A stretch of DNA of 36,129 nt, from IMG/VR virus record IMGVR_UViG_3300020183_000237, positions 1 through 36,129 of that record, one strand, 5' to 3'. The notes under the pieces were generated by a model. It worked only from the letters and a program-made list of their open reading frames with translations. It had not been told where the DNA came from and did no database searches. Origin of the DNA: a virus. Shown here piece after piece: positions 339-29,770 of this stretch. Numbering within the stretch: the first letter of the stretch is position 1; every line of letters starts with the position of its first letter. A program made the translations under genes and the position numbers.

Positions 339-353
339 GTCGCAAAATACGAC
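339..353. repeat. GTCGCAAAATACGAC quasi-palindrome
   Basis: This 15-bp site is almost identical to GTCGCAAAATGCGAC at 29662-29676, and both are followed by GTTTT. It shares the GTCGCA...GAC arms of the repeats at 616-690 and 29705-29770, so it is probably another binding site for the same protein. Confidence 0.6.
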
Positions 354-615
354 GTTTTCAATTTTGACCGTTTTCGTCAAATCCGTTGCAATAACTGGAA
401 AAACATCAAAATCCAAACGACCGAAACCGACAAATAATAGTCTGGAGAGATATGAAAGAGTCTGAAAACCATGTTACTAGTGTCTAAGCTTTATCAATGA
501 ACTGTTCTAGTAGCTAGTTACTAGTATTACTTAGTATAATGAACAGTATATTTATAATATAATATATACTATTTCTTTCTTTGTCCACTTTCTTTCTTTG
601 CTTGCTTGAAAATGG

Positions 616-690
616 ACGTTGTATTTTGCGACGTTCGATGCACTAAAATGCGACATGCACGTCGTATTATGCAACGTTGCAAAATGCGAC
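616..690. repeat. Palindromic repeat cluster A (iteron-like)
   Basis: Positions 661-690 form a 30-bp near-perfect palindrome centred on AACGTT with outer arms GTCG...CGAC. It has the same design as 29741-29770. Related half-sites lie at 618-629 (GTTGTATTTTGC) and 645-654 (AAAATGCGAC). The cluster lies directly downstream of the AT-rich tract. Likely roles are binding sites for the replication initiator, or operators. Confidence 0.7.
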
Positions 691-782
691 AAAATTGACC
701 CCGTTTGGGATTATATCACCTCAAAAAAAAATACTGTTGGGAGTAAAAATAAAAAGGAATATTTTAAAAAATAAAAAAAAAA

Positions 783-1058
783 TTACATGGGTTGCAATGG
801 TTGGTAATTACGAATCCGGCTACGATTATTTGTATGGTTGACCTTGATAATTGGTTCAATGCCGTTTTGGTTGCACCATTTAACGAAACGGAGAGCGTCT
901 ACATCCTCTTCGAGATACACCCATCCGTTGTTTTCATACGAAAACTGGGTGAATGCTGAGCGCCAATGTGGGCCGCACAGTTCCATCAAGAACTGTTTGC
1001 TGACTTTTACCCACGCATGACCGGGGTCGGCATAGCCACGAAATGTTCTACTTTTCAT
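783..1058 (-). CDS. Hypothetical protein, 91 aa
   Basis: Last gene of the long minus-strand block. The N-terminal half contains DPGHAWVKVSKQFL and a later VYLEEDVDALRF segment, a pattern I associate with small conserved proteins of cyanobacteria and their phages, with no known function. It starts with ATG inside the end of the preceding gene (11-nt overlap ATGAAAAGTAG), so translation is probably coupled. There is no signal peptide or membrane segment. Confidence 0.7.
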   Translation of the reverse strand: MKSRTFRGYADPGHAWVKVSKQFLMELCGPHWRSAFTQFSYENNGWVYLEEDVDALRFVKWCNQNGIEPIIKVNHTNNRSRIRNYQPLQPM

Positions 1059-1200
1059 TGTTTTGTTGAAAGAATAATTTGCGGCGTTCCTTCAGCCAAT
1101 CCTCGTACTGTTGCGTAGTTGCAAATAGTTCGCGGAACTGTGATGGTGCTTCGGGAACTTCGTCTGAGTGCATTGGCCGGCTCCATACTTCATAATTCAT
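1048..1200 (-). CDS. Hypothetical protein, 50 aa
   Basis: The open frame is longer upstream, but ATG at 1200 overlaps the stop of the preceding gene as ATGA, the common coupled arrangement here, so I chose that start. The product is polar, ends in a basic KERRKLFFQQNNEK-like tail and has no recognisable domain. Confidence 0.55.
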   Translation of the reverse strand: MNYEVWSRPMHSDEVPEAPSQFRELFATTQQYEDWLKERRKLFFQQNNEK

Positions 1201-1499
1201 GACAGTCGCCCCTGTAAGCGATCCCAGGTTTTTTGTTCTTTGGTCGTCGGACGCATCAAGCAATATGCCTGATGGTCAATGACTGCGGAGCCATCGCTTT
1301 CGTAATGGCCCTCAACTTCGTTGATCCAAATGCCACGACAATTATTCTCGGCATCAAAGACGCCAATCAGGTCTTCGTCATCTTCCATCGCCAAGCGAAC
1401 GTGAAACAATAAGTCACGCAGCGTAGCGGCTTGATAAGACCCCTTGGTGCAATCCCAATAAGGGCCGTTGTCTTTGGATGTGCGGATGGTAGTAATCAT
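1197..1499 (-). CDS. Hypothetical protein, 100 aa
   Basis: The start is taken at ATG 1499 (MITTIRTSKD), overlapping the stop of the 64-aa gene upstream by 4 nt; the longer frame to 1544 would cut into that gene. The sequence is acidic in the middle (AMEDDEDLIGVFDAENNC) with no transmembrane segment. The four genes from 1690 to 783 look like one small operon read leftwards. I do not recognise a family. Confidence 0.6.
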   Translation of the reverse strand: MITTIRTSKDNGPYWDCTKGSYQAATLRDLLFHVRLAMEDDEDLIGVFDAENNCRGIWINEVEGHYESDGSAVIDHQAYCLMRPTTKEQKTWDRLQGRLS

Positions 1500-1690
1500 T
1501 TTTTGAATTGCGAGTACTTTTCTGCCCAGGCAATCATAGCCCAATCACTGCAGCAATTGTAGGTTTGGCGCCCAAGAATCCTTGGGCAGACAATGATCCA
1601 GTCGTAATTATACGTCGGATCCCTGTAAGCCCAACCGCCGACTAAGGCGATGGTTTTGATGGCTTGTTCAACAGGCGTTGGCTTGGCCAT
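1496..1690 (-). CDS. Hypothetical protein, 64 aa
   Basis: First gene of a four-gene leftward group whose members overlap by 4, 4 and 11 nt. It starts at ATG 1690 (MAKPTPVEQ) next to a 190-bp divergent intergenic region. It is rich in aromatic residues (GGWAYRDPTYNYDWIIV) and has two adjacent cysteines. I assign no function. Confidence 0.6.
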   Translation of the reverse strand: MAKPTPVEQAIKTIALVGGWAYRDPTYNYDWIIVCPRILGRQTYNCCSDWAMIAWAEKYSQFKK

Positions 1691-1763
1691 GGAGCAGTGT
1701 ATCGGTTCCTGCTATGCAAATTTACGAAATAGACAGCAACCCGTCAAGCCAATTGTCACGAAA

Positions 1764-1811
1764 CCGTAACAAAAGACCGTTATGCCGGGACATTGTTTCA
1801 TTTTGTTACGG
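1764..1811. promoter_or_regulatory. Inverted repeat in divergent intergenic region
   Basis: CCGTAACAAAA at 1764-1774 is repeated as its exact reverse complement TTTTGTTACGG at 1801-1811, with a 26-nt spacer. It sits between the minus gene starting at 1690 and the plus gene starting at 1881, so it could be an operator for both, or an RNA stem-loop. No T-run follows either arm, which argues against a terminator. Confidence 0.45.
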
Positions 1812-1880
1812 AAAGCCGTAGTCTCATTGGACTCGCATATCTGCTTAATTATGGTTTGTGCGTTGGTCATTTTAAAACCA

Positions 1881-2213
1881 ATGAAAAACCTACGAATCAC
1901 ACCTGCTCGCAAACGCTTCCTTGAGGCCTTTGACCAATACACCAACAAAGGCACTAATCCACACACGCTTGATAACGCCTGGAAAGAACTGGGCGTCCAA
2001 CCACGAACCATAAACTTCTGCAAACGCAACGGCTTGTTGGCTAAGTCTGGCTTGCCACATACTTATGTGGTAGCGATGGAGATCCGTCGCATGCTGAATT
2101 TGGCATTGCCACCCAAGCCCTTACGGAAAAAGCCCGTACAACCGCAGAAGGAGACTGTTGATGTGACCGTTCGTCGCCGAACCCGTAGACGTTCCTCCTC
2201 GGTGGCTGTATGA
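1881..2213 (+). CDS. Basic HTH-like hypothetical protein, 110 aa
   Basis: The start is taken at ATG 1881 (MKNLRITPARKRF); the frame is open further upstream but that part overlaps the divergent promoter region. Residues about 15-55 (FLEAFDQYTNKGT...AWKELGVQPRTINFCKRNGL) resemble a helix-turn-helix, and the C-terminus is strongly basic (RRRTRRRSSS). A nucleic-acid-binding role is likely. It is one of six short plus-strand genes at 1.9-4.5 kb set into a minus-strand region. Confidence 0.6.
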   Translation: MKNLRITPARKRFLEAFDQYTNKGTNPHTLDNAWKELGVQPRTINFCKRNGLLAKSGLPHTYVVAMEIRRMLNLALPPKPLRKKPVQPQKETVDVTVRRRTRRRSSSVAV

Positions 2214-2284
2214 TGTAACGGAAACGGCTCTCAGCGTGGTTCCAGGCACCATGGGGCCTTTGTTTCTATTTATTACATAACATC

Positions 2285-2503
2285 ATGGAACAAGAATTTG
2301 CGGCAGCTATTGCCGAAATCAACCTAGAATACATTGATTCCTTGAAGGCAATGGCAGACATGCTAGATGCCATGGCAGATCTGCTGTCTATTAATTACAA
2401 GGATGCCACTACTGCATTATTTGTAGTCGATCGAATGCGTCAAACGTCGGCCAAGACCAAGCGCGTTATTGTTCAGCACACCGCAGGTATTCCGATTTCC
2501 TAA
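2285..2503 (+). CDS. Hypothetical alpha-helical protein, 72 aa
   Basis: Starts at ATG 2285 about 70 bp after the previous gene. The sequence is Ala-, Met- and Asp-rich and largely helical (SLKAMADMLDAMADLL), with no cysteine or membrane segment. The family is unknown. It could be a small structural or scaffold component by its place among short plus-strand genes, but nothing proves that. Confidence 0.55.
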   Translation: MEQEFAAAIAEINLEYIDSLKAMADMLDAMADLLSINYKDATTALFVVDRMRQTSAKTKRVIVQHTAGIPIS

Positions 2504-2563
2504 TTGGTATACTGCATTGGTGAATCACCGATAGCCTAGGTTCGTGACTTCGACTGGCGTCAA

Positions 2564-2779
2564 ATGGAAACAGAGGTCACTCAATTTAACCTTAGTGTTG
2601 ATGGTCTTTCGACTGATCAATTGGTTACGCAGTCGGAATGCCAAAAAATGATTGATGCGGCAATTCGCCGTCACAATCGTAATGCAGGCATCATCAGCAT
2701 GCTGGTGGGCTGGCTGGTCTTTGGCATCTTTGCCGATGGCTTGCTGCGCGTGGCCGGCAAGATCCCTGCATTGTTTTAA
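2564..2779 (+). CDS. Small single-pass membrane protein, 71 aa
   Basis: A polar N-terminal half (about 42 residues) is followed by one hydrophobic segment, GIISMLVGWLVFGIFADGLL, and a short tail. This fits a tail-anchored or holin-accessory type of membrane protein. A CCTAGG sequence lies at 2535-2540, 23 nt before the start, resembling the motif upstream of the next genes but less well spaced. Confidence 0.55.
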   Translation: METEVTQFNLSVDGLSTDQLVTQSECQKMIDAAIRRHNRNAGIISMLVGWLVFGIFADGLLRVAGKIPALF

Positions 2780-2782
2780 GGG

Positions 2783-2800
2783 TGGAACCCTAGGGAAATG
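2783..2800 (+). promoter_or_regulatory. CCTAGGG-centred start-proximal motif, copy 1
   Basis: TGGAACCCTAGGGAAATG lies with CCCTAGGG at 2788-2795, 15 nt before the ATG at 2811. The same core occurs at the same distance before the genes at 3401 and 4313 (plus strand) and 35190 (minus strand). A late-promoter element with a very short leader is the best guess. Confidence 0.5.
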
Positions 2801-2810
2801 TTGCGCGGCA

Positions 2811-3086
2811 ATGGCAATCAATTATCGGGGTGAAAAATTTGCTGGGTATAACAAGCCCAAACGTACTCCAAATCACCCAAAAAAAAGCCATGCTGTTTTG
2901 GTGAAAGATGGCGACAAAACCAAGTTGGTTCGCTTTGGCCAGCAGGGTGTGTCGGGTTCACCTATGCGGTCTGGCGAATCAGCAGTCGCCAAGGCCCGTA
3001 GAGCCTCTTTCAAGGCTCGTCATGCTAAGAACATTGCAAAGGGCAAAACATCGGCGGCCTACTGGGCTGACCGCGTAAAGTGGTGA
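2811..3086 (+). CDS. Conserved basic phage protein, 91 aa
   Basis: The frame is open upstream, but I chose ATG 2811 (MAINYRGEKF): the preceding sequence is the 2564-2779 gene in another frame, and the CCTAGGG motif sits 15 nt before this ATG. The C-terminal half (KARRASFKARHAKNIAKGKTSAAYWADRVKW, positions about 60-91) resembles a motif I associate with tailed-phage proteins (SFRARHNC or FKARHAKNI type) of unproven, possibly virion-related function. It is very basic and contains no cysteine. Confidence 0.75.
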   Translation: MAINYRGEKFAGYNKPKRTPNHPKKSHAVLVKDGDKTKLVRFGQQGVSGSPMRSGESAVAKARRASFKARHAKNIAKGKTSAAYWADRVKW

Positions 3087-3341
3087 CTATTCTGCGTTAC
3101 GGCTAAGCGAGATTAAAGTCGTCAATAATCCCATCAGTACAGTGATGGCCCGAGTATCCGAATCCATGCATCCCATAGGTTCAGGATTGATCTTATCACC
3201 TTGTTCAGTGCCCACATATTTTGCATACCATGGCCACACGGTGGGCAGCACATAAAAGCGGCATGCAGCCCATTGTGATGTTGCAACGACAGCGATAACA
3301 GCAGACAGGCTAATAACTGATCGCCAAAGCCACTTTGGCAT
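3087..3341 (-). CDS. Two-pass membrane protein, possible holin
   Basis: Convergent with the plus gene ending at 3086. I chose ATG 3341 (MPKWLWRS); a GTG at 3371 in the same frame is an alternative. Hydrophobic segments lie near the N-terminus (VISLSAVIAVVATSQW) and the C-terminus (AITVLMGLLTTLISL), separated by a polar loop containing one cysteine. Size and topology would fit a holin or a spanin-like accessory, but the sequence is not diagnostic. Confidence 0.5.
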   Translation of the reverse strand: MPKWLWRSVISLSAVIAVVATSQWAACRFYVLPTVWPWYAKYVGTEQGDKINPEPMGCMDSDTRAITVLMGLLTTLISLSRNAE

Positions 3342-3371
3342 AGCAATCGCGCAATCAAAATAGTATCCCAC

Positions 3372-3388
3372 TGGAACCCTAGGGAATA
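3372..3388 (+). promoter_or_regulatory. CCTAGGG-centred start-proximal motif, copy 2
   Basis: TGGAACCCTAGGGAATA has its CCCTAGGG core at 3377-3384, 16 nt before the ATG at 3401. Over the first 15 bases it is identical to copy 1 at 2783. Confidence 0.5.
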
Positions 3389-3400
3389 GCGTTATTGATC

Positions 3401-3553
3401 ATGGCTAAACGTCCTGGACTTTGGGCAAACATTAATGCCAAGCGGAAGCGCATTGCGGCAGGCAGTGGAGAGAAAATGCGGAAGCCGGGCAGTAAAGGAG
3501 CTCCAACCGCAAAAGCATTAAAGGAATCGCAACCAAAGAAAAAAAAGCGTTAA
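3401..3553 (+). CDS. Small lysine-rich conserved phage protein, 50 aa
   Basis: Begins MAKRPGLWANINAKRKRI and contains GSGEKMRKPGSKGAPTAKA, a highly conserved pattern in very small proteins of many tailed phages ("GLWANIHAKRKRIKAGSGEKMRKPGSKGAPT" type). It ends in a poly-lysine tail. The function is not established; charge suggests DNA or nucleic-acid contact, possibly inside the virion. The CCTAGGG motif precedes it by 16 nt. Its last 4 nt overlap the end of the convergent minus gene. Confidence 0.8.
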   Translation: MAKRPGLWANINAKRKRIAAGSGEKMRKPGSKGAPTAKALKESQPKKKKR

Positions 3554-3780
3554 TATATCGATTCCTTGGCTGAGTTACGATACAGAGGACATCCTTCGGT
3601 ATCATGTATCCATGTTTTTAATTCGTGGCAGTAAAGCCTGAGTTGCTCAGCTTTTTCAATGTGCCACGGATCTTTTGATATAAAATATTCCCGAGTGTGA
3701 TTATCAATTGCTTTCAACAATTGATGTATTACCGGATTCCACGGTTCCCTGATGGGCGTATTCCATTCCCTACGGGACAT
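3550..3780 (-). CDS. Hypothetical protein, 76 aa
   Basis: I chose ATG 3780 (MSRREWNTPIREPWNPVIHQLL), preceded by GGTGG as a plausible ribosome site; a GTG nine bases upstream is an alternative. The protein is rich in His, Trp and Tyr with two cysteines and no membrane segment. I recall similar short SRREWNTPxREPWNP proteins from cyanobacterial phages, function unknown. It lies 32 bp downstream of the cysteine-cluster gene and is probably co-transcribed with it. Confidence 0.6.
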   Translation of the reverse strand: MSRREWNTPIREPWNPVIHQLLKAIDNHTREYFISKDPWHIEKAEQLRLYCHELKTWIHDTEGCPLYRNSAKESIY

Positions 3781-3812
3781 GACGACCACCAGGGGATAAT
3801 AAAGTTTGCCGA

Positions 3813-4253
3813 TTAACGTTCAACGCACTCTTCAAATTCATCGGTGCCATATGCATGGTAACCACCGTTGACTTGAATGACCATCGGCATACCAGTGCGT
3901 TGATGATGTTGGAATAACCAATTTAATGCTTCGGAGGTAATCTTTTTATCTGTTTCACAAATGTCCCAATAATCATTCTGAACGCCTTCTTTATTCAACC
4001 AATTGCGGAACGTAATAATTGCATTGCTTAAAGTAGGTTTCATCCAACCGGGAACAATGCCGTTTATCAGCCACTCACAATTATAGTCTTGGCAAGGCAA
4101 CTCGGGTCGCTGATCATAGATTGAACACCCCTTACAGTCCAGAAAATGGCACGGCCGCCCAGGGAAAAATTGCTTATTGTAAGCCTGACCCGGCAACCAC
4201 CCTTGACAACAAGCAGTGCAATCGCCGCACTGGCGAGTCATTTTAAGTTCCAT
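3813..4253 (-). CDS. YkgJ-like cysteine-cluster protein
   Basis: The N-terminus has the CxxCxxCC motif (CGDCTACC) followed by further cysteines (PCHFLDCKGCSIYDQRPELPC, DYNCEW). This matches the YkgJ/CxxCxxCC family, thought to bind zinc or an iron-sulfur cluster, with no proven reaction. I chose ATG 4253 (MELKMTRQ); ATG 4262 in frame is possible. A perfect TATAAT lies on the minus strand at 4274-4279, which would place transcription start about 14 nt before ATG 4253. The C-terminal half is acidic and lacks cysteine until the final EECVER. It is presumably cytoplasmic, since no signal peptide is present. Confidence 0.75.
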   Translation of the reverse strand: MELKMTRQCGDCTACCQGWLPGQAYNKQFFPGRPCHFLDCKGCSIYDQRPELPCQDYNCEWLINGIVPGWMKPTLSNAIITFRNWLNKEGVQNDYWDICETDKKITSEALNWLFQHHQRTGMPMVIQVNGGYHAYGTDEFEECVER

Positions 4254-4273
4254 GGGAGGCATTGCAGCAATTC

Positions 4274-4279
4274 ATTATA
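4274..4279 (-). promoter_or_regulatory. TATAAT -10 box for the cysteine-cluster gene
   Basis: The minus strand reads GTCGGTATAATGAATTGC here, a perfect housekeeping -10 hexamer 20 nt before ATG 4253. I see no clear TTGACA at the -35 position. It overlaps the divergent plus-strand CCTAGGG motif region at 4283-4300. Confidence 0.4.
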
Positions 4280-4282
4280 CCG

Positions 4283-4300
4283 ACAGGCAACCTAGGGAAA
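4283..4300 (+). promoter_or_regulatory. CCTAGGG-centred start-proximal motif, copy 3
   Basis: ACAGGCAACCTAGGGAAA places CCTAGGG at 4291-4297, 15 nt before ATG 4313. It continues as CGTTGCG, matching the TGTTGCG that follows copy 1 at the same offset. Confidence 0.5.
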
Positions 4301-4312
4301 CGTTGCGAATCC

Positions 4313-4450
4313 ATGAAGAATCAAAGTAAGACCAAAAAAATGACGACAGCTCAGAAATACGCTTCATTAAAACGTCAAACCGAAAGGGCTGGCATGACGG
4401 TTTCCGAAAAGAAAGGTAAATTGGTGATTTCTCGCAAAAAGAAAAAATAA
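4313..4450 (+). CDS. Small lysine-rich protein, 45 aa
   Basis: Starts at ATG 4313 (MKNQSKTKKM) 15 nt after the CCTAGGG motif. About one third of the residues are Lys or Arg, and it ends ISRKKKK. It is probably nucleic-acid-binding. Together with the genes at 2811 and 3401 it forms a trio of small basic proteins, each with its own copy of the motif. A hairpin terminator follows immediately. Confidence 0.6.
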   Translation: MKNQSKTKKMTTAQKYASLKRQTERAGMTVSEKKGKLVISRKKKK

Positions 4451-4480
4451 AAGCGACCCCGTTCCCGGAGCCGCTTTATT
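4449..4480. terminator. Bidirectional hairpin terminator between convergent genes
   Basis: AAAGCG at 4450-4455 pairs with CGCTTT at 4472-4477, with a GC-rich inner stem around GACCCC/CCGGAG and A- or T-rich flanks on both sides. It lies between the plus gene ending at 4450 and the minus gene ending at 4547, so it can serve both. Confidence 0.65.
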
Positions 4481-4546
4481 TGGGCCTTTGTGGTTTTTTT
4501 GATTTGCCTTAGGCGCGCTGATGCCTGACGGCTTTTATCGTTGCGT

Positions 4547-4687
4547 CTAGGCCCTTCTGATGGCCTCTCCCATCGCTTTAGTAATGGCATTTGCCTTCTC
4601 CTGTGCCAGCTTCCAGCGCAAGTACGGAAAATTTCCGATCTTTTGCTGTTTTTTGAGTTGTGCTTGAATCAGAGCGAGTGTAGTCAT
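4547..4687 (-). CDS. Hypothetical protein, 46 aa
   Basis: The start is fixed by a strong ribosome site: GGAGGAACC directly before ATG 4687 (MTTLALIQ). The product is a basic, helical, Gln/Lys/Ala-rich protein (ALIQAQLKKQQKIGN). It overlaps the stop of the DUF4278-like gene by 4 nt. The family is unknown. Confidence 0.6.
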   Translation of the reverse strand: MTTLALIQAQLKKQQKIGNFPYLRWKLAQEKANAITKAMGEAIRRA

Positions 4688-5445: not shown

Positions 5446-5499
5446 GACACATTGTCCTACCTTGGCCTGTAGCAAAGTAATCAATGACTTAGAAAACCA

Positions 5500-6777: not shown

Positions 6778-6779
6778 GG

Positions 6780-6998: not shown

Positions 6999-7320
6999 CG
7001 GGCAGTGCTTCCAGTGCGCGACGGACAACAGAAAAGTCCCATGAGCCGCACGCATCTTGATTAGTCTCGACGACATTTAGCAGCGCAATGGCCTGCTCCT
7101 TCAAACTCGGCTGCGGGCGGCGGTCTTGGCGGAGTAGATCGCCCCAATCCGCAAAGGATTGTACCCAACTACAGCACGCTTCCAGTTCTTGGTCAGCGCC
7201 CCAGCGGGCGGCGCACGTAGCGACATCCGCTACCCATTGATCGGGAGACACTCCCACGGCCTTAAGGAACCACTGCTGCATTAGCTCCGGCGGCGGGTCA
7301 ATCGGGTGTTGTTCAATCAT
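6991..7320 (-). CDS. Picocyanobacterial-type conserved protein, 109 aa
   Basis: I chose ATG 7320 (MIEQHPIDPPPELMQQW). The combination PPPELMQQW, RWGADQELEACCSWV and a C-terminal RRPQPSLKEQAIALL...VRRALEALPDD is a pattern I know from hypothetical proteins in picocyanobacteria and cyanophages. No function is established. Its overlaps with both neighbours have the identical sequence ATGATTGA, suggesting coupled translation of this pair and of the membrane protein upstream. Confidence 0.75.
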   Translation of the reverse strand: MIEQHPIDPPPELMQQWFLKAVGVSPDQWVADVATCAARWGADQELEACCSWVQSFADWGDLLRQDRRPQPSLKEQAIALLNVVETNQDACGSWDFSVVRRALEALPDD

Positions 7321-15004: not shown

Positions 15005-18000
15005 CTAGATTTGCTTTCCCGCTTGATCATTGTCCTTTCCTACAGTCGATAAACACTTATCGGAATCACAGCCAGCAGCACCTTTTAGTTCATAAGATGC
15101 ATTGTCATATTGAGCCAATAAGTCAAGCAAGCTAGTATCTTTGCTTAAGGTAACCCTAGAGGCAGCTACACAACTCATCCAACGATCATAGGTTTCTTTG
15201 TCAATTGGTTCAAACGGCAAGCGAGGGAAGGTTTCGTTTGAATCAAAACGAGCTAATAACGCCGCAGAAATGTACCCATTATCCTGTTGAATAGTATCGT
15301 AAATTAATTTACTCAAAGACGGAATTTCGTTTTCTTGATATTCTATGGTTGCAGAGGTATTGTGATCAGTGTAATAATTCTGAACTTGCATATACAGCCC
15401 AAACTGTGCTTCCACTGGAAGCTTGCTCAGGTCATATTGATCGCAACCAGGCAGATCCGCCCAGGAGACTGCTGTCGGAATTTCTACTAGGACTTCTTGA
15501 ACTCGCGGGTCGTTAATGTCGTCGAGTAGGTTGCCTTGATCGTCTTTTGCACTTTGCGCTGGGATGACGGAATAACCATAATCGCGCAGAGCGCTAACCA
15601 AAGGATCATTAACCCCAAAAGTGATACGACGAATAAATCGTTGCGCCTTTGGCGGGTGCCAACCCGGCGAAGCACCGGTAAGCAAGGATTTTGACCCTGC
15701 CGGTTGTACCGTAGTAAATCGGTTTGGTAGCTTGAGACCATTTAAAGTACAGTAATCTTTGATACCCTGAATAGCGGCTCGACGCCACCGCTGCAGATAC
15801 TTTCGCTCTGCTTCCTTATACATTCTACCGGCTCTGCCTCTTGGGCGGCCATTCATCATCCAACCAAGCCACTCAGATCCGAAGGCATGAACAAAAAAGT
15901 CAAACATACCAGTAAAACTGACGCCAACGATAGGATCGTTTTCACGGCTATACTGCAAACGTTCTGGGATAAATTTATGCTGTAACAATGCTGCAACTTG
16001 AAGGCCGCCAGCGTAGAAGGCGTTATGTTGCAATTTTTTATCTTGTGGATTGATAGTATTGAGGTGGATTTCAGAAAGATTACAAAGATTATCTCGCATA
16101 ATGATTTCACCGCACTGTCCAACTAGATGCTGGCTCCCAAGAGTGAATGCATGCGTATTAGGCACGGTACAGCAATAAACCTTGTCAGCTTTATGCGAAA
16201 AATCAATCGAAACAATCTTATTTGACCTAGATTTAAGTTGATAACGAACGGTGCGATTAGCAAAAGATTTTAGCCGTTGAAAATTTACGTTTTGAGCAAG
16301 TTTGACTGAGCTTGCTTGACTGATAACCAGCCGATAAGTTGGCTTGACCACATAAATACCTCCGCGCATGCTCCCGAAGTCTTTAAGACCTCCGGCCCTA
16401 ACAGGCCCAATCTTGCTTTCGATTCCTAGTGTGCTAAATAAAACGACCAAGCCCTCAAGAAATTCACGGCTAATGCTAGTGATCGAATAACCAAATCCAT
16501 TGATACTGTCCTGGGCAGTGCCGTCAGCATCAAATAGACCAGCTATAAATTCATACTTACAATTGTTTGTCCAATTCAACACGTCAGTGGGGAATGTTTT
16601 CTTGTATGTACGCGCCCAGTCGTACATGTCTTCCTCCATGCTCGTCAGGCTTTTTAGGAATCCGGTAGCAGTAAGTCCAGTCTCAACGCCTACGGTAATG
16701 CCGCTTTGTACAGTCTTTTCAACTAAGCCAATTTCATGTTGAGATGCACACAGTTTTTTCACACAGATCTCTTTAGGCTTATAGATTCGGCACATTGCGC
16801 GTTTGTCTTTCGTTGAAGTTCCATCGCCAATCAAAAATCCTTTAAGGTAAGCACCATTGACTTCAACTGTGCCTTGGACCGGACCAGTCTTGGCCATCAT
16901 CAACTTATCATTAACCCTTAGGTCTTTAAGTTGCACCCTAGTGCCATCTTCAAGAATAAATTTATGATATCGAGTCGCGGAAATTTTCAGTCCACTGTGT
17001 AGGGTGATCGTGTAAATATCTTGGTCATGGGCGGTGACACGAAAATTGTCAATCTCCACCCATTTATTCCCGTCATGAATCTCAACAGTTTTACCAACAA
17101 GATCCTCAATGGGATAATACCCCCTGCGGGTCATCACAATTGTACCAGCGGCAAAGCAAGGGTTAAGTCCATAACGGTCCATTCGATGATTAATAATCCG
17201 GTTATTGGTCGGCTGGCCATCAAGGTGGGCTAGTTCAATCAGATAATCACGCGCCAGCTCGCGCCCCTTAGTCGCGTATAATTCAAGAAACTTTAATTTC
17301 TTTTCTAGAGAATTCAACAAGTCAGCGTTCGCTCTGGCAACGGCTTCAGGAACATACATGATCGCCCCTTCGCCAGACCAATATTGCTTGGTCACAGCAT
17401 TCTGAACCTCCCGTAGGGTCGGCTTATGATGGAAGCACCTCGTATGATTTGCCATTCTTAGTGCTTCTTTTACAGGATTAACGCTCCAATTGCCGTCTAT
17501 ATCTTGCTTGTAAAGGCCATCTTTTGCTTCTGTGGCAGCGGAATCGCCAGAACTAAACTGTCGCATGCCGGCACTACGACGAATGTTCCCAGCAACAACA
17601 GCGCTAGCAGCCTCGTCGATAATCAGACAGGTCTCTACCGAGTCGAGTTTGCGCCCTACGGCGGCCGTTAAGACCCCCGCAACGCGCTCTAGGGTGGTCT
17701 GTAGCCGGACAGGGTTAGCGGTGCCTCCAAAGCCCTTCAGGGGCTCTCCTGCTTGGCGCACTTGACTTAGATCCAACACTACTTCGGCGTCGATACACAA
17801 AGTATCATCGCCCTCGGCCTCTGCCGGCATTCCAACTGCTAATTCGATCAAGCCCTGGTAAGCCGAAGCCCAACCATGGCGAGAATCACCAATGGTTAAG
17901 TGGATAACTGGATTTTCATTATTGATACCAACCATTCGGATAGTGGTGTCAGGGCTGCCACCTACCATACCCGTATTTTGCACAACGTGAGTAATATGAA

Positions 18001-18403
18001 GCCCCCTGCGAATTTTGGGCAACTTTTCGATTGTTTCTTTCTCAAGAACAGCTCCAGTTCCAGTTCCCATCATTGCCAGCTCCATCAGAAGGCCAAACAT
18101 TGGCACTTCATCAAGATGCATAGAACAACAATTATAGAAACCAGGAAAGTTCTCAGCCCTTTTTGCCCATTCGGTTCCTGCTACCCACAGCGAACGCCCA
18201 CTTGGCAAGCAATGCTGTCGTTGGGCCATATCCATTGCCAATTGACGTTGCTCGTCAGAAAATTTACCAACATCAGCAATCGCATTAATTGTCCGCGTTA
18301 TTGCCTCTTCGTAATTTTCCCTGACGCCATCAGGCTTTCGGCGGGAATATGAACGATAGAAAACGGCCGGCGCAGAAGGCGCAGTAGAGCGAAATTCGGA
18401 CAT
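15005..18403 (-). CDS. nrdJ: Class II ribonucleotide reductase, monomeric RTPR type, with intein
   Basis: Uses adenosylcobalamin to reduce ribonucleoside triphosphates to deoxy forms. The 1132-aa product contains an intein at residues 416-763; the spliced enzyme would be 784 aa, near the normal length. N-terminal features are LPSGRSLWVAGT, FYNCCSMHLDE (first redox cysteine), MMGTGTG and FGGTANPVRL...AVVAGNIRRSAG. After splicing, NP joins CGEI, which carries the radical-forming cysteine and the neighbouring Glu; NLCNLSEI has the second redox cysteine, and the C-terminus has CDSDKC, the swinging dithiol pair. The start is ATG 18403. The glutaredoxin at 19117 may recycle it. A strong terminator follows. 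A B12-dependent enzyme ties it to a host that makes or imports cobalamin or pseudocobalamin. Confidence 0.93.
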   Translation of the reverse strand: MSEFRSTAPSAPAVFYRSYSRRKPDGVRENYEEAITRTINAIADVGKFSDEQRQLAMDMAQRQHCLPSGRSLWVAGTEWAKRAENFPGFYNCCSMHLDEVPMFGLLMELAMMGTGTGAVLEKETIEKLPKIRRGLHITHVVQNTGMVGGSPDTTIRMVGINNENPVIHLTIGDSRHGWASAYQGLIELAVGMPAEAEGDDTLCIDAEVVLDLSQVRQAGEPLKGFGGTANPVRLQTTLERVAGVLTAAVGRKLDSVETCLIIDEAASAVVAGNIRRSAGMRQFSSGDSAATEAKDGLYKQDIDGNWSVNPVKEALRMANHTRCFHHKPTLREVQNAVTKQYWSGEGAIMYVPEAVARANADLLNSLEKKLKFLELYATKGRELARDYLIELAHLDGQPTNNRIINHRMDRYGLNPCFAAGTIVMTRRGYYPIEDLVGKTVEIHDGNKWVEIDNFRVTAHDQDIYTITLHSGLKISATRYHKFILEDGTRVQLKDLRVNDKLMMAKTGPVQGTVEVNGAYLKGFLIGDGTSTKDKRAMCRIYKPKEICVKKLCASQHEIGLVEKTVQSGITVGVETGLTATGFLKSLTSMEEDMYDWARTYKKTFPTDVLNWTNNCKYEFIAGLFDADGTAQDSINGFGYSITSISREFLEGLVVLFSTLGIESKIGPVRAGGLKDFGSMRGGIYVVKPTYRLVISQASSVKLAQNVNFQRLKSFANRTVRYQLKSRSNKIVSIDFSHKADKVYCCTVPNTHAFTLGSQHLVGQCGEIIMRDNLCNLSEIHLNTINPQDKKLQHNAFYAGGLQVAALLQHKFIPERLQYSRENDPIVGVSFTGMFDFFVHAFGSEWLGWMMNGRPRGRAGRMYKEAERKYLQRWRRAAIQGIKDYCTLNGLKLPNRFTTVQPAGSKSLLTGASPGWHPPKAQRFIRRITFGVNDPLVSALRDYGYSVIPAQSAKDDQGNLLDDINDPRVQEVLVEIPTAVSWADLPGCDQYDLSKLPVEAQFGLYMQVQNYYTDHNTSATIEYQENEIPSLSKLIYDTIQQDNGYISAALLARFDSNETFPRLPFEPIDKETYDRWMSCVAASRVTLSKDTSLLDLLAQYDNASYELKGAAGCDSDKCLSTVGKDNDQAGKQI
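16115..17158 (-). mobile_element. Intein with LAGLIDADG homing endonuclease in nrdJ
   Basis: A 348-aa in-frame insertion begins at Cys416 (CFAAGTIVMTRRGYYPIEDL, block A) and has a block B TxxH (ISATRYHKF). Two LAGLIDADG-type motifs follow, LKGFLIGDGTS and FIAGLFDADGT. The end has block F (CCTVPNTHAFTL) and finishes LVGQ directly before the +1 Cys. Canonical inteins end HN; here the last residues are Gly-Gln. The +1 nucleophile is the reductase's own radical cysteine, so the enzyme cannot work unless the intein leaves precisely. Whether the endonuclease is active is not visible, but both acidic motif residues are present. Confidence 0.9.
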
Positions 18404-24075: not shown

Positions 24076-24092
24076 TGCGACTATTGTTCCAA

Positions 24093-24755: not shown

Positions 24756-24788
24756 GTCCTTTAAATCTCTAGGACAGTCTAAAGGATT

Positions 24789-25640: not shown

Positions 25641-25655
25641 GTTTGACTTGCGATC

Positions 25656-26069
25656 CTACATTGTATCGTCGATCAGGCAAATATGAACAATCCACTTGGA
25701 GTCAGCCTTTTTTGCTTGATGCCATTCAATTGACAGACTGGGGATAACATTGACCCTATCATCTGTCCACAAGAGGTTGTGAGCACTGTCCATCAATGCT
25801 CCAGCGATATTATCGGTATCACCGCGCCCTTCACCGTAAACAATCAAATGCAGGTGCAACGGACCCATCAATGGTGGAGTAGTCCATTGTTCTTTTAATT
25901 GTTTTTTGATGGCATGCTGGGCTTCTTTGTAAGCGGCCGGCATATAAGTATGACCCGCTCTGGTCATCCTAGGTCGGGCCTTTGAGAATAAGGGATACTT
26001 TAATTCTAGGGTGTAGTCACTCGGGCGGCCGGTGACCCAAGAGCTGTACTGATAACCATTTTCTGTCAA
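25656..26069 (-). CDS. rusA: RusA-family Holliday junction resolvase
   Basis: Cuts four-way DNA junctions. The family's features are present: SKARPRMTRAGHTYMPAAY near residues 29-47, then GRGDTDNIAGALMDSAHNLLWTDDRVNVI, giving the conserved aspartates (D..DN and DD) of the active site. It ends KWIVHICLIDD. Length 137 aa is slightly longer than E. coli RusA. The start at ATG 26069 overlaps the upstream gene by 53 nt. Confidence 0.85.
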   Translation of the reverse strand: MTENGYQYSSWVTGRPSDYTLELKYPLFSKARPRMTRAGHTYMPAAYKEAQHAIKKQLKEQWTTPPLMGPLHLHLIVYGEGRGDTDNIAGALMDSAHNLLWTDDRVNVIPSLSIEWHQAKKADSKWIVHICLIDDTM

Positions 26070-26448
26070 TTTGAGTTGCCGGTTTCTTGTACGCCTCTAC
26101 ATTGTTCCGATAAATAGGTCCAAGGTCTTCGCCTTGCCACTCTTCGTTTACGAGTACTTCATCATAGATTGTCGAATTAGTACCGCACCTTTTCGTCTGT
26201 GCAATTTTAAGCAAGACTAAATAACCAATCAAATCATTAATCACATCTTCATCACAAGCTAGTAGACCAGCTCCTTTTTGAATGCGATTTAACTTGTCAT
26301 CAATCCTGACAAGTAGTTGTTCTACGGTGGAGGCTTGACTGAAAATACGGCATGGATTCAAAGCACTGTCTCCATACTTTTTATTTTTAGACAATAACAG
26401 TTGCTTGATTTCATCGCAAACTTTTGCAATTTCTAGTTGGCTATTCAT
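26017..26448 (-). CDS. Nucleotide-modification-associated protein (DUF1599/Nmad1-like)
   Basis: Begins MNSQLEIAKVCDEIKQLLL; the core NKKYGDSALNPCRIFSQAS, VEQLLVRIDDKLNRI and EDVINDLIGYLVLLKIA is the DUF1599 pattern, an all-alpha family related to MazG-type NTP pyrophosphohydrolases and named for its association with phage DNA-modification genes. The acidic residues of KYGD, D(D)KL and EDVINDL could bind metal. A C-terminal 45-residue extension is variable-looking. It overlaps its upstream neighbour by 4 nt (ATGA). Confidence 0.75.
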   Translation of the reverse strand: MNSQLEIAKVCDEIKQLLLSKNKKYGDSALNPCRIFSQASTVEQLLVRIDDKLNRIQKGAGLLACDEDVINDLIGYLVLLKIAQTKRCGTNSTIYDEVLVNEEWQGEDLGPIYRNNVEAYKKPATQIDRKWLSVQLLGHRPPE

Positions 26449-26699
26449 TGTTTTTCAGCCATGCGAATAGAACGTGCGTCGCGTACCGTGATCAATCGAC
26501 TGCCAACGGTAAGCATGACAACACAATGATTTTGAGAACTTTCAATAACATTGCCAGAACTCCAACCCGCACCCATGTATATTTGGACGCGAGTACCCTT
26601 TGTGAATCTGGGCAAAGGAAAAGAAGGCCTGCTTAGTCTTTCGGATTCTTTGTAGGCACTGGGTTTATATTTAACAGTACCATCTTTCAGGGTTCTCAT
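26445..26699 (-). CDS. Hypothetical protein, SH3/KOW-like, 84 aa
   Basis: ATG 26699 (MRTLKDGTVKYKPSAYKESERL) overlaps the previous stop by 4 nt. The C-terminal half (FTKGTRVQIYMGAGWSSGNVIESSQNHCVVML...LITVRDARSIR) is a run of short beta-strands like a small SH3/Tudor barrel, found in several phage proteins of unknown role. Confidence 0.65.
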   Translation of the reverse strand: MRTLKDGTVKYKPSAYKESERLSRPSFPLPRFTKGTRVQIYMGAGWSSGNVIESSQNHCVVMLTVGSRLITVRDARSIRMAEKQ

Positions 26700-27151
26700 A
26701 AGCAAGATTCTGGTAATCTTAATTTTTGCTGTTTGCTAAGTTCTGCCAGTAAATGCTGTGGCATCTTGGCGCCTAAAGAGGCTACCCAAGAAATTACCAA
26801 GGGCAAATTATTAGCCGTCAGAACCCATAGATCTGCATCTTCATTGTAACGAAGTGTTCCATGGGAAACCATCTCTCCTAAAACTTCGTCAATCAACTTC
26901 TCAAGTCGTGTGCCTTCACACCACTCTTCCTCAATTGGATCCCACCCTCCTACCTTTAAGTCCAACATGGAGCAGTGGGGACTAATGCTGGCAAGAACTT
27001 CTTCGTAGCGTACAGCTCCGCGATGCAACAGCGTAGCAATGACGTAAGGCTTTACCTGGGCAATAGTCAAAATTGGTTTCTCATCAATCAATGTTCCCAG
27101 CACGCTGTATGCCCAATCGGAATGACGCTGTGGCAGATCAGTATGTGACAT
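26696..27151 (-). CDS. Hypothetical protein, 151 aa, winged-helix-like
   Basis: I chose ATG 27151 (MSHTDLPQRHSDWAYSV) because an 8-bp hairpin lies between it and the SSB gene; the frame is open to 27205. The middle (IAQVKPYVIATLLHRGAVRYEEVLASISPHC, then LEKLIDEVLGEMVSHGTLRYNEDADLWVL) reads like a winged helix with "G.l.y.ed...W.l" as the wing. Probably DNA-binding or structural; not recognised as a named family. Confidence 0.55.
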   Translation of the reverse strand: MSHTDLPQRHSDWAYSVLGTLIDEKPILTIAQVKPYVIATLLHRGAVRYEEVLASISPHCSMLDLKVGGWDPIEEEWCEGTRLEKLIDEVLGEMVSHGTLRYNEDADLWVLTANNLPLVISWVASLGAKMPQHLLAELSKQQKLRLPESCL

Positions 27152-27165
27152 GAGATTTACTTTAT

Positions 27166-27192
27166 GGGCGGCAACACAAAAGTATGCCGCCC
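27166..27192 (-). promoter_or_regulatory. Stem-loop downstream of SSB
   Basis: GGGCGGCA (27166-27173) and TGCCGCCC (27185-27192) form a perfect 8-bp GC-rich stem with an 11-nt loop, 10 bp after the SSB stop codon and 15 bp before the next ATG. No T-run follows, so it may protect or process mRNA rather than stop transcription. Confidence 0.5.
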
Positions 27193-27201
27193 TTGTGATC
27201 G

Positions 27202-27552
27202 TCAAAATGGCATTTCCGACTTGTCGTCCGTAGGACGATATTCAAGGTAGGTCGGATTTGCATTACGAATATCAAGATAAACTTTACCTTGGTATTCGCG
27301 CTGAACAAGTTGGCCGGTTACGGCAATCTTGTCGCCACGCTTAATTCGCTCCGAAGCGATTTCGGCCTGCTTGCCACGCAATTGGCAGTTGTAAAACTGG
27401 CCAGTTTTTTCGTCGCCGGGTTTCACGTACACGTATGCACGATCCATTACCGTGAAGGTGGCAATTTGGTCACCACTGTCAAACGTTTTAACGCTGACGG
27501 GGGAAGTGCCTTCTTTGCACACAATAGTGCCTGCGATGCTAATGGTAGCCAT
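27202..27552 (-). CDS. ssb: Single-stranded DNA-binding protein
   Basis: An OB-fold protein of 116 aa coating ssDNA in replication and recombination. Strand pattern: ISIAGTIVCKEG, IATFTVMDRAYVYV, QFYNCQLRGKQAEIASERIKRGDKIAVTGQLVQREYQGKVYLDIR; the last block (GDKIAVTGQL....Y.GK.Y..I) is diagnostic. The tail is short but ends in DDKSEMPF, resembling the acidic hydrophobic DDxxPF tip by which SSB recruits partners. ATG 27552 is preceded by GGGAACCG. Confidence 0.88.
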   Translation of the reverse strand: MATISIAGTIVCKEGTSPVSVKTFDSGDQIATFTVMDRAYVYVKPGDEKTGQFYNCQLRGKQAEIASERIKRGDKIAVTGQLVQREYQGKVYLDIRNANPTYLEYRPTDDKSEMPF

Positions 27553-27569
27553 CGGTTCCCAGTATGGGT

Positions 27570-28445
27570 TTACAGTGCCAGCTTATCGGGGTTAGCAACC
27601 TTGCGTAGCCGCCGGATGGCATGATCACAACGTGAACGTATCAGCGAGATTGGAAGGCCCGTTACAGCGCTTATTTGTTTGTACTCCATGCCATGCACGA
27701 ACCGATGGCGCAACAGTCGAGCTGTGGATTCTAGTATGTCAGATTCTTTCAAGAATTGTTCAATTTCGCTAGAAAACAATCCTTGCTCTTGATTAAAAGT
27801 GTCGATACCGTTGTCACGGATGGTATCCGCTACATCAATATCTTCACCAATTAATCGATCCAGAGAATCAAAGTTGATGGCCATCAAAACTCTGTCAGTC
27901 ATTTCGCAAGCTTTTTCCTCGGAGAAGTTGCGACCGCCAGTAATTTTATGGTCTCTGTAATTAAAAGCGGCGCGAATTGAATCTTCAGGCACGTAAATTG
28001 GACTTATTTCAAGATAATTGTGCCGGCCTACATAGCAACGAATCCAATAGGATGCATAAGTTGAAAATTGATACCCTCGTTTGGGATCAAACTTCTCTGC
28101 AGCCTTTCTCAATCCAAGAACTCCTACCTGGAAATAATCAACGGTAGACTCATGTCCCCATTTCTTGTACGCCTGGGTACGCAAAAAACGACCAACAAGA
28201 TTGGCGACCAATAGAAGGTTATGTTCAACCAATTTGTTGATCAACTTAGTTCGCCGTGGATCGCCTTCGGGCAATTCTTGAATTTCGTTGCTAATTTTAG
28301 AAATCTGGCTTTTTGGCAATCTTGGCTTTTTGCCGGCTACATTGAGCCAGGTTGTGATTGGGTCAATCGTTTGATGCATTGTCGCCAGACGAAGAACGTA
28401 GACTGGCCGATGATGCCGCAAATCAAATGGTTTAGCAAGGGACAT
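27570..28445 (-). CDS. Sigma-70 family factor (regions 2 to 4)
   Basis: Residues about 70-140 (LVEHNLLLVANLVGRFLRTQAYKKWGHESTVDYFQVGVLGLRKAAEKFDP, then GYQFSTYASYWIRCYVGRH) are regions 2.1-2.4 of group 2/3 sigma factors, for core binding and -10 recognition. The C-terminus has a region 4-like HTH (MEYKQISAVTGLPISLIRSRCDHAIRRLRK). Unlike the protein at 21089-21760 both ends of the sigma fold are present. ATG 28445 lies in a 14-bp palindrome; ATG 28379 (MHQTIDPI) is an alternative start. It lies early in the minus-strand transcript, so it may switch promoters during infection. Confidence 0.85.
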   Translation of the reverse strand: MSLAKPFDLRHHRPVYVLRLATMHQTIDPITTWLNVAGKKPRLPKSQISKISNEIQELPEGDPRRTKLINKLVEHNLLLVANLVGRFLRTQAYKKWGHESTVDYFQVGVLGLRKAAEKFDPKRGYQFSTYASYWIRCYVGRHNYLEISPIYVPEDSIRAAFNYRDHKITGGRNFSEEKACEMTDRVLMAINFDSLDRLIGEDIDVADTIRDNGIDTFNQEQGLFSSEIEQFLKESDILESTARLLRHRFVHGMEYKQISAVTGLPISLIRSRCDHAIRRLRKVANPDKLAL

Positions 28446-28451
28446 GTCCCT
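28438..28451. promoter_or_regulatory. 14-bp perfect palindrome at the sigma gene start
   Basis: AGGGACATGTCCCT includes the ATG of the sigma gene. It lies in the short gap after a terminator. A protein bound here, or a hairpin hiding the start codon, could control the sigma factor. Confidence 0.35.
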
Positions 28452-28495
28452 AAGAAGATCTAAAGAAATTCTCGCGTATCAAGGATGATGCCAAA

Positions 28496-28524
28496 GAAAA
28501 AAGCCGCCAAAGAACTAGCGGCTT
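28496..28524 (-). terminator. Intrinsic terminator after annealing protein gene
   Basis: On the minus strand AAGCCGC (28524-28518) pairs with GCGGCTT (28507-28501) around a 10-nt loop, followed by T residues (28502-28497). It ends the transcript of the annealing-protein gene (stop at 28564) before the sigma gene, which would then need read-through or its own promoter. Confidence 0.8.
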
Positions 28525-28563
28525 CGTTCACACACTCCTCACGCACAAGTGAGCTAGAGGGAT

Positions 28564-29241
28564 CTACCAGGCTTCCACGCTCGCGGCTCCGAGAAAAGGG
28601 GCATTTTGCTCCTGTACCCAAACATCATTCTTGGATTCAAGAGTCTTAATGCCTTTCTCATAATTGCCATTGATAACGCCAATCAATTTGTCGGTTGCAT
28701 CCTTACACAGCCCCTTATCGAAAGCAGCGGTCTTAAAGTCCTGCTCAGTGGCCCCAGAAGCGGCCTTAGTGACCTTTCCGGCAACCGTCTTGGTAGCGTC
28801 CTTTTGAAGGGCCACAGGAGGCTGCGTATCGCCGTATCCGCTTTCGATTGGCATCTTGGCCCAAAGTTCAAATGCCAAACCGAAAAAGAAGCAGGCGGCA
28901 AGACAGGTGCCACGGCGCTGAGTGTCCGTGATGTCGCGAGCCGTGATTTTCTCATACGGAATCGCGAAGTTCCGGGTATCCATGATGGACTGTGGGACTG
29001 CTGGTGTTTCAGTGCCATCAGCATGAACGAACCGGATCATCAAATACCCGCCAACGGGAGCTTGGTGAACCAATGAACCGTTTGGGGCCGTCAGAGTCTC
29101 CGGCATCCAGCCAGGTGCATGCTGGCGAAGCAAATTTAAAGTCCTTGACCAATTGACATAACTAGCCTTGAAGTTGCCGGAACCAATGGTATCAACAAGA
29201 TCCTTGGTTACGATACCAGCCAAATTCGGGATGTCAGCCAT
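28564..29241 (-). CDS. Sak/DUF1071-like single-strand annealing protein
   Basis: Anneals complementary ssDNA for recombination. The block GGYLMIRFVHADGTETPAVPQS, then IMDTRNFAIPYEKITARDITDTQRRGTCLAACFFFGLAFELWAKMP (residues about 85-130), matches the DUF1071 (SSAP Sak-type) family: "PQ.IMD.RN..i....ItARDiTDt.RRg.c.a..f.fGLa.ELWAK". The N-terminal ~60 residues contain VDTIGSGNFKASYVNWSR. 225 aa is a normal length. The C-terminal third is charged and variable. It starts at ATG 29241 with an 8-nt overlap with the upstream gene. Partner nuclease at 24789. Confidence 0.75.
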   Translation of the reverse strand: MADIPNLAGIVTKDLVDTIGSGNFKASYVNWSRTLNLLRQHAPGWMPETLTAPNGSLVHQAPVGGYLMIRFVHADGTETPAVPQSIMDTRNFAIPYEKITARDITDTQRRGTCLAACFFFGLAFELWAKMPIESGYGDTQPPVALQKDATKTVAGKVTKAASGATEQDFKTAAFDKGLCKDATDKLIGVINGNYEKGIKTLESKNDVWVQEQNAPFLGAASVEAW

Positions 29242-29584
29242 TAGTAGATTTGCGTAATGCTTTCAGCAGTTTACGGGGTTTGGCAGCGTCAATCTGTTGT
29301 TGAAGCTGATCTTTATGTTGTTGTCGCCTTTTCTGTGCTTGCAAAACAGAGCGGCAACTTTGCCGGTGCATTTCAATCCACAAATCCAGCTCCCAGCGCT
29401 CGTAAATCCCGAGATCGCCGATGAGTTGCCATGCCCAATCCTCGGATTGGCGGCCTTCCAGAACAGCGCGGGCGATGGATTGCCCGATCTCCTGGAACGA
29501 CCGACGAGCCTGTGCCCGCTGCTCACGAGTGTACCGAGTTTTGCTCTTTGGTTCACCTGCTGTGCCGGTTTCCCTTTTGTCCAT
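29234..29584 (-). CDS. Hypothetical basic coiled-coil protein, 116 aa
   Basis: I chose ATG 29584 (MDKRETGTAGEPKSK); the frame extends upstream through the repeat cluster, which is not coding-like. Highly helical and basic, with QRAQARRSFQEIGQSIARAVLEGRQ and C-terminal QKRRQQHKDQLQQQIDAAK. It is the first gene of the leftward recombination/replication transcript. Unknown family; possibly an annealing-protein accessory. Confidence 0.55.
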   Translation of the reverse strand: MDKRETGTAGEPKSKTRYTREQRAQARRSFQEIGQSIARAVLEGRQSEDWAWQLIGDLGIYERWELDLWIEMHRQSCRSVLQAQKRRQQHKDQLQQQIDAAKPRKLLKALRKSTNG

Positions 29585-29661
29585 TTGCCGACTGCCGCGT
29601 AGCGCTTGCGCGTGGGTATGGTTCCAGTCTGATGTGGATATGAGGATCAATCTGACTAAGT

Positions 29662-29770
29662 GTCGCAAAATGCGACGTTTTTTGTTGTCTTTCACGACGT
29701 TGATGTCGCATGGTGCAACGTCCACGTCGCATGATGCAACGTCGCATTTTGCAACGTTGCAAAAAACGAC
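29662..29770. repeat. Palindromic repeat cluster B, upstream of the initiator gene
   Basis: Four related 15-bp units: GTCGCAAAATGCGAC (29662-29676), GTCGCATGGTGCAAC (29705-29719), GTCGCATGATGCAAC (29726-29740) and GTCGCATTTTGCAAC (29741-29755). The last is extended by GTTGCAAAAAACGAC (29756-29770) to a 30-bp palindrome like 661-690. The cluster lies between the divergent starts at 29584 (minus) and 29809 (plus), 39 bp upstream of the initiator-like gene. Strong candidates for iterons or operators of both transcripts. Confidence 0.8.

Follow-up and report, generated by a model that had tools for sequence, protein, structure and literature searches.

The virus record IMGVR_UViG_3300020183_000237 of IMG/VR, analyzed here at its full length of 36,129 bases and called the window below, carries a putative replication initiator gene followed by a DnaB-type helicase gene, together with two distant clusters of a 15-bp palindrome, GTYGYANNNTRCRAC. 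The cluster in front of the initiator gene is referred to as array 1, and the one close to the beginning of the record as array 2. The record is classed as linear, and its encoded proteins include portal, terminase, DNA primase, sigma factor, dCTP deaminase and class II ribonucleotide reductase (RNR). Its DnaB is 46-50% identical to that of the Synechococcus phages S-CRES1, S-CRES2, S-CRES3 and S-CBS2, and the window is a fragment related to the siphocyanophages S-CBS2 and S-CRES1-3. Since the genomes of these four phages measure 71-74 kb, it probably represents about half a genome. A nucleotide search among phages with the initiator-dnaB stretch gave a single short match only, and Rfam and tRNA scans of the window gave none.

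Two palindrome arrays and the initiator-dnaB operon

The genes and sites are as follows:

29662-29676: array 1 unit (before the initiator gene), exact
29684-29698: array 1 degenerate unit, 2 mismatches, 21-22 bp from its neighbours
29705-29719: array 1 unit, exact
29726-29740: array 1 unit, exact
29741-29755: array 1 unit, exact
29756-29770: array 1 unit, 1 mismatch
29779-29785 (+): TACGCTG, a -10-like TAnnnTG box, starting 8 bp past the last array 1 unit
29809-30810 (+): initiator gene; predicted winged-helix N-terminal domain, long helix and mostly helical C-terminal part
30815-32596 (+): DnaB-like replicative helicase gene
339-353: array 2 unit (putative origin side), exact
618-632: array 2 unit, exact
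640-654: array 2 degenerate unit, right half only (645-654), 3 mismatches
661-675: array 2 unit, exact, left half of a "30-bp palindrome"
676-690: array 2 unit, exact, right half of the same

A first, sequence-only reading had described two 30-bp palindromes (661-690 and 29741-29770) with additional half-sites around each. All of its positions agree with the sequence, and the common layout of the two stretches is real, 28 of 30 positions (93%) being the same in inverted orientation. Each "30-bp palindrome" consists of two abutting 15-bp units. The six half-sites exist as well, but five of them are whole 15-bp units and the name fits only 645-654. Exact copies of the unit are confined to the two loci: the 36-kb record holds eight, every one of them within 339-690 or 29662-29770, against none for the reversed control, and no exact copy was found elsewhere in the whole record, throughout which sites with 2 or 3 mismatches are scattered. 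In viral_contigs, 0 contigs contain the exact double unit GTYGYANNNTRCRACGTYGYANNNTRCRAC. Allowing up to 3 mismatches to the degenerate pattern GTCGCATTTTGCAAC gave 9 matches against 1.97 expected, a number reached by 0 of 100 shuffles; this pattern was derived from the same window sites, and the independent test is the relatives. The circular derivation of the pattern leaves some room for chance or low-level sequence bias, but such an origin is extremely improbable, given that the same layout recurs in the relatives with different letters.

Within array 1, the units are spaced by 22, 21, 21, 15 and 15 bp, i.e., by two helical turns or abutting. The last site ends 38 bp before the initiator ATG (29809), and dnaB starts 4 bp past the initiator stop with no gene between, which bears out the earlier placement of this cluster just upstream of a winged-helix initiator gene followed by dnaB.

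The initiator (333 aa) was modelled from a 19-row alignment with a mean predicted local distance difference test score of 86.4 and a predicted template modelling score of 0.44; the predicted model consists of a winged helix at approximately residues 20-90, a long helix at 92-115 and then a mostly helical C-terminal part. In VIA-align 2, the N-terminal part of the Geobacillus primosomal DnaB came first (Z 11.2, 105 aligned), followed by 2d1h (Z 8.2) and the DnaD N-domain (8.1). Lower down, PLE RepA 4ro3, 4pql and RepA 4pt7 (Z 7.7), the Rep-DNA complex 5kbj (7.3) and 4pta (7.2) were matched in a range, Z <8, which may reflect merely a common arrangement. Among 22 members of the initiator family, PHROG matches were obtained to a DnaD-like loader (phrog_186, 6 of 22), to replication initiation (phrog_270, 5 of 22) and to an O-like protein (phrog_678, 4 of 22), the window initiator matching only a DnaD-like PHROG (E 0.003). 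A Pfam scan of the same 22 proteins at E 0.01 listed 13 families, with matches to general helix-turn-helix (HTH) families. On the strength of the predicted winged helix, the PHROG matches and the adjacent dnaB, the 29809-30810 product is most likely the initiator or loader of a replication operon. The window DnaB had four sequence matches in PDB, 3bgw among them (E 8e-4).

Palindrome arrays before the initiator in related viruses

A DnaB profile search of IMG/VR gave 45 loci. The core set comprised 24 records read whole, namely 20 from IMG/VR (G001-G020), S-CBS2, S-CRES1, S-CRES3 and the window; G021 and G022, taken for their length, and G023 and G026, which already showed an origin-like element, were added later. 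Most relatives examined bear lineage-specific palindrome arrays before the initiator-dnaB operon, with letters that differ between viruses: GTTGCANNNTGCAAC in G002-G005, GCTGCANNNTGCAGC in G006, GTGGACANNNTGTCCAC in S-CRES1, TACCCANNNNNTGGGTA in S-CRES3, TGCCCANNNNNTGGGCA in S-CBS2, TCTCANNNNTGAGA in G018, CGATANCTNAGNTATCG in G013, and others besides. Units similar to those of the window stand before the 85%-identical initiator of IMGVR_3300010354_000278. A unit was definable in 18 of the 24 core records; no clear array was seen before the initiator in G009 and G010, nor one of this kind before dnaB in Cyanophage PSS2 (DnaB 30% identical). The automatic unit finder was doubtful for G009, G010, G012, G014, G015, G017, G019 and S-CBS2. 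Of these, the units of G017 and S-CBS2 were set by hand for the covariation and spacing analyses and that of G012 for the same-genome comparison, the others being left out of the covariation and spacing analyses. Among the unit spacings below 60 bp (n = 76, including some spurious matches in G016, for which the pattern was too loose), 63% were 20-24 bp and 17% were 14-18 bp. In 9 of 19 records a TAnnnTG box begins 2-12 bp past the last array 1 unit (chance 0.042 each), a position that places this unit over the upstream promoter region.

The second array and its surroundings

With up to 2 mismatches allowed, copies of the S-CRES1 unit number 6 before the initiator and 7 at a second locus, and those of the S-CRES3 unit 3 and 4, respectively. 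For a systematic scan, position weight matrices (PWMs) were built from array 1 only, and a cluster of at least 3 units scoring above the maximum of eight Markov nulls was accepted. Such a second cluster was found in 7 of the 24 core records, with score/null values of 160.8/0 in S-CRES1 (own array 1 146.6), 101.8/0 in G018, 98.9/18.6 in G013 (own array 1 85.7), 89.7/17.5 in S-CRES3, 75.7/24.7 in G007, 52.3/23.2 in the window and 45.1/22.4 in G016. The array of G007, whose array 1 has few repeated 8-mers, had been overlooked by an earlier k-mer scan and was found by eye before the PWM scan. Two further candidates were not counted: G006 passed its null by one single site (16.8 vs 16.5), and G014 owed its score (29.5 vs 25.3) to a doubtful unit inside the initiator gene.

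Inspection added second arrays in G012, G021, G022 and G023. As testable we took records read with at least 29.9 kb upstream of dnaB or complete (n = 20; L018, long enough with 31.9 kb upstream, is not included). The closest relative of the window, G001, extends only 28.0 kb upstream, which does not reach a locus at -30.2 kb. A second array is present in 11 of the 20 (window, S-CRES1, S-CRES3, G007, G012, G013, G016, G018, G021, G022 and G023), 24.5-33.6 kb upstream of dnaB.

Around array 2 of the window, the following elements were noted:

1-14 (+): GCGTGATCGTGAAC motif, first bases of the record
159-176 (+): C-rich element AAGCCCCCACAAGGCCCC
547-568 (+): TA-rich tract TATATTTATAATATAATATATA, candidate unwinding element
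572-600 (+): TTTCTTTCTTTGTCCACTTTCTTTCTTTG, 29/29 identical in G006 and in the G026 contig (L135)
711-810: record maximum of AT content over 100 bp (78%), next to array 2

The tract at 547-568 and the record maximum at 711-810 agree with the earlier remark that the first set of sites adjoins AT-rich DNA; similarly, the two most AT-rich 100-bp stretches of S-CRES1 lie within approximately 450 bp of its array 2. A TA-rich run was present within 80 bp of array 2, on its far side, in 11 of 11 records, compared with background rates of 0.4-7.4%, the array of G021, found via its TA tract, not being independent in this count. Flanking its second array, S-CRES3 has two copies similar to GCGTGATCGTGAAC and a third, related one, and S-CRES1 has a single similar copy; AAGCCCCCACAAGGCCCC also adjoins that of G012 and G013, its first 17 bases with 1 mismatch that of G016. 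As an origin marker, the C-rich element AAGCCCCYACAAGGCCCC was rejected: only 4 of 14 IMG/VR contigs with it (L139, L141, L144 and L145, in the range L139-L152) show a TA/palindrome locus beside the element, 9 are without a second-array locus, and L149 ends too soon to tell. By eye only, some of these nine resemble the start of the terminase gene of other phages. In the window, a 72-aa open reading frame (ORF; 247-465) overlaps the site at 339-353, and no ORF of at least 60 aa overlaps 618-690.

At array 1, the palindromes are phased and a -10-like box lies next to them; this, together with a winged-helix fold of a kind common among regulators, would also suit a protein that acts on transcription only, the sites being its operators and array 2 governing another transcript. 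This is unlikely, as a TAnnnTG box follows array 2 in 0 of 7 records examined, the second locus of S-CRES3 lies between the 3' ends of the converging genes gp62 and gp63, and array 2 is located near skew minima (see below).

Another trait of the locus concerns contig ends. Of the 23 contigs that reach at least 20 kb upstream of dnaB, seven (window, G002, G016, G018, G021, G023 and G026) begin within the interval 29.9-31.0 kb upstream, which was chosen after the data were seen. The second array is found just inside this start in the window, G016, G018, G021 and G023, and in G026 the tract lies inside it; G002 is without array. A DNA end, or a place that assemblers cannot cross, would give such a shared start. 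The first 30 bases of G016 (IMGVR_UViG_3300000117_000054) are presumably Illumina adapter sequence. Contigs starting beside array 2, four of them besides the window, might point to a role of array 2 in partition, packaging or termination, with either the initiator or some other protein binding there. We consider this quite doubtful, because a TA-rich tract and a skew minimum suit an origin and because S-CRES1 and S-CRES3 were deposited as circular.

Strand skew

Three circular genomes with array 2 were available, S-CRES1 and S-CRES3, deposited in this form, and G013, circular by a 123-base end repeat. The detrended GC-skew minimum was at a distance to array 2 of 59 bp in S-CRES3, 1307 bp in S-CRES1 and 704 bp in G013 (Fisher P 2.4e-4). 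The minimum of S-CBS2 falls at position 5477 of its record, approximately 32.7 kb upstream of dnaB if the linear record is closed, and no array was seen there.

Covariation of sites and initiator

When the arrays of 11 genomes were compared 11 x 11, array 2 was most like array 1 of its own genome in 10 of 11 cases, with a mean likeness of 13.50 to the own and 9.75 to other arrays (permutation P 5e-5, the floor). The exception was G007, whose array 2 was matched slightly better by G021, of the same site type. There is some circularity in this comparison, because resemblance to array 1 had served to locate several of the second arrays; those of G012, G021 and G023 were located instead via skew, TA tract or C-rich element. 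A mixed case was encountered in G022: its array 1 is all TTCGCGANTTTGTCC, and its array 2, approximately 24.5 kb upstream of dnaB, combines three TGGACANNNTGTCC units like those of S-CRES1 with two of the TTCGCGANTTTGTCC type, one being imperfect in each set. Judged from these letters, G022 looks like a change of recognition sequence, from the older TGGACANNNTGTCC type to the newer TTCGCGANTTTGTCC type, caught half-way.

Across 18 records, with units partly set by hand, the distance between units correlated with that between initiator HTH motifs (Mantel r 0.785, P 5e-5, the floor of 20,000 permutations), between whole winged helices (0.798) and between C-terminal parts (0.762). The partial correlation was 0.43 for the HTH given the C-terminus and 0.34 for the reverse. 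After four near-duplicates were dropped (14 records), r was 0.59, 0.67 and 0.53 for HTH, winged helix and C-terminal part, respectively. The site type thus follows the initiator, and somewhat more its DNA-binding part, with common descent accounting for much of the link.

Proposed function

The sequence-only reading had proposed that a single protein binds both the promoter of its own gene and an origin elsewhere. This gains support from the comparison, with lineage-specific arrays before the operon, a second array in 11 of 20 testable records and the detrended skew minima near it. The 15-bp palindromes are probably the binding sites of the initiator, with array 1 serving autoregulation and array 2 serving as the replication origin. 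They would act as iterons bound by the phage's own initiator, the 29809-30810 product. Array 1 (29662-29770) would overlap the upstream part of the presumed initiator-dnaB promoter, and the initiator bound there would regulate the expression of its own gene. The origin would be array 2 (339-690) together with its TA-rich tract and the conserved sequences on its flanks: initiator dimers, helically phased on the array, would melt the tract and load the DnaB helicase there.

Several results weigh against this proposal. Apart from the 11 positive records, a count that rests partly on inspection, neither second array nor tract was seen in 7 of the 20 testable records (G002, G003, G004, G005, G008, G015 and S-CBS2), and two (G006 and G026) have in common with the window only the TA/TTTCTTTCTTTGTCCACTTTC tract, without palindromes. 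Raw skew minima, without detrending, fall elsewhere (record positions 2176 in S-CRES1 and 71007 in S-CRES3); the GC-skew minimum of the circular G006 is 7.3 kb from its tract, with only the keto-skew minimum close (463 bp); and the cumulative skew of the window falls almost throughout from array 2 rightward, with a slope between the loci opposite to that of S-CRES3. ORFs of at least 60 aa overlap array 2 in 6 of 11 records (72 aa in the window; the longest, 222 aa in G018, touches only the array end), and the S-CRES1 locus has two small annotated hypothetical genes. At array 1, no TAnnnTG box was found in 10 of 19 records, G002-G006 among them and G013 counted as a miss on a stretch of only 6 bases. 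Regarding the protein, a Foldseek search with the initiator model gave no match at E 0.001 (5kbj E 0.14), and since the correlation with the sites is nearly as strong for the C-terminal part as for the HTH, much of the link between site and protein could come from descent alone.

Comparison with known initiator systems

By layout, the nearest known case appears to be G38P of Bacillus phage SPP1 with oriL and oriR. G38P is reported to bind repeats with AT-rich elements at both sites, and in the SPP1 model G38P at oriR stalls forks and starts concatemer synthesis (PMC6316719, PMC3485210). Common to both systems would be one initiator, predicted here, with two distant repeat loci and AT-rich elements, an initiator and a DnaB-type helicase in one operon, and recombination genes in the genome; a block divergent from the initiator in S-CRES1 and S-CRES3 is annotated with a Rad52-like recombinase, SSB, RusA and a Cas4/exonuclease-like gene. 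Moreover, 3bgw, matched by the window DnaB, is given as SPP1 gp40 in PMC6316719. Two distant loci of the same unit occur in the window and 10 of the 19 other testable records. All 11 two-array records have an AT-rich tract at array 2, and eight of them, the window not included, also have one at array 1 (11 of 22 records in all). The systems differ in that SPP1 oriL lies inside gene 38, whereas array 1 ends 38 bp short of the initiator ATG; a separate loader gene, 39, acts with the helicase there, whereas dnaB directly follows the initiator here; and the two sites are 12-13 kb apart there and approximately 23-33 kb here.

These likenesses bring up a different division of roles, in which replication would start at array 1, with array 2 as either another origin or a barrier to forks, or the two arrays would have these roles exchanged; in an SPP1-like version, theta replication would proceed from one array and stall at the other, concatemer synthesis then following. 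The TA-rich runs near array 1 in eight records are in line with it, and so is the gene block of S-CRES1 and S-CRES3, which comprises the kinds of protein that figure in the SPP1 model (PMC6316719, PMC3485210). We regard it as possible rather than probable: array 1 of the window is without TA run, and in each of the three circular genomes with an array 2, that array is where the detrended skew minimum lies. Returning to array 2 as the origin, we tentatively suggest that the siphocyanophages might operate an SPP1-like two-site switch with the distal array firing and the proximal array repressing and blocking forks, the recognition sequence being rewritten in step at both and G022 offering a snapshot of the process.

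Three other initiator types show partial likeness. RepA_N initiators (pSK41/pTZ6162 RepA and PLE RepA) are reported to have a winged-helix N-domain resembling DnaD and, like the cyanophage arrays, semi-palindromic iterons in direct repeat (PMC7145576); the same source gives 4ro3, 4pt7, 4pta and 5kbj as RepA structures, which matched the predicted window initiator at Z 7.2-7.7. RepA_N was not among the 13 Pfam families listed for the 22 initiators at E 0.01, and unlike the RepA_N plasmid and satellite systems, the cyanophages bring their own DnaB and many have two loci. DnaD-like helicase loaders are approached by the phrog_186 matches and by the fold; the DnaD N-domain is reported not to bind DNA (PMC7145576), whereas the site here covaries with the corresponding N-terminal domain.

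To lambda O, the four phrog_678 matches point, the window initiator not being among them. The iterons of lambda lie inside the O gene. Those of the cyanophages, unlike in that layout, are upstream of the gene and at a remote locus.

With these arrays, a group of cyanobacterial phages gains a concrete candidate origin and initiator. No marked origin was seen in the deposited annotations of these phages, and no paper on this system in cyanophages was found in the literature, judged by titles and the starts of abstracts. Across the records, a DNA-binding domain and the sites at its two separate loci vary together as a natural series, and this gives a testable case of how a replicon may change origin specificity without losing function.

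Further observations

Boxes of the sequence TTTTCCACA, which we take to be cyanobacterial DnaA boxes, were within 1.2 kb of the second locus in three of seven cases (one in G012 and two in G013), with none near that of the window; by eye, three of them lie near the origin-like locus of L135 (approximately 7000-7035). A different palindrome, TAGTACNNNTGTACTA-like, is repeated approximately 0.5-3.4 kb from the second array in S-CRES3, G012, G013 and G022. Finally, the class II RNR gene of the window (15005-18403, minus strand, 1132 aa) holds an intein with a LAGLIDADG homing endonuclease, with Pfam matches to intein splicing at residues 451-755 and to LAGLIDADG at 616-706; the annotated RNR gene of S-CBS2 measures 2301 bp.

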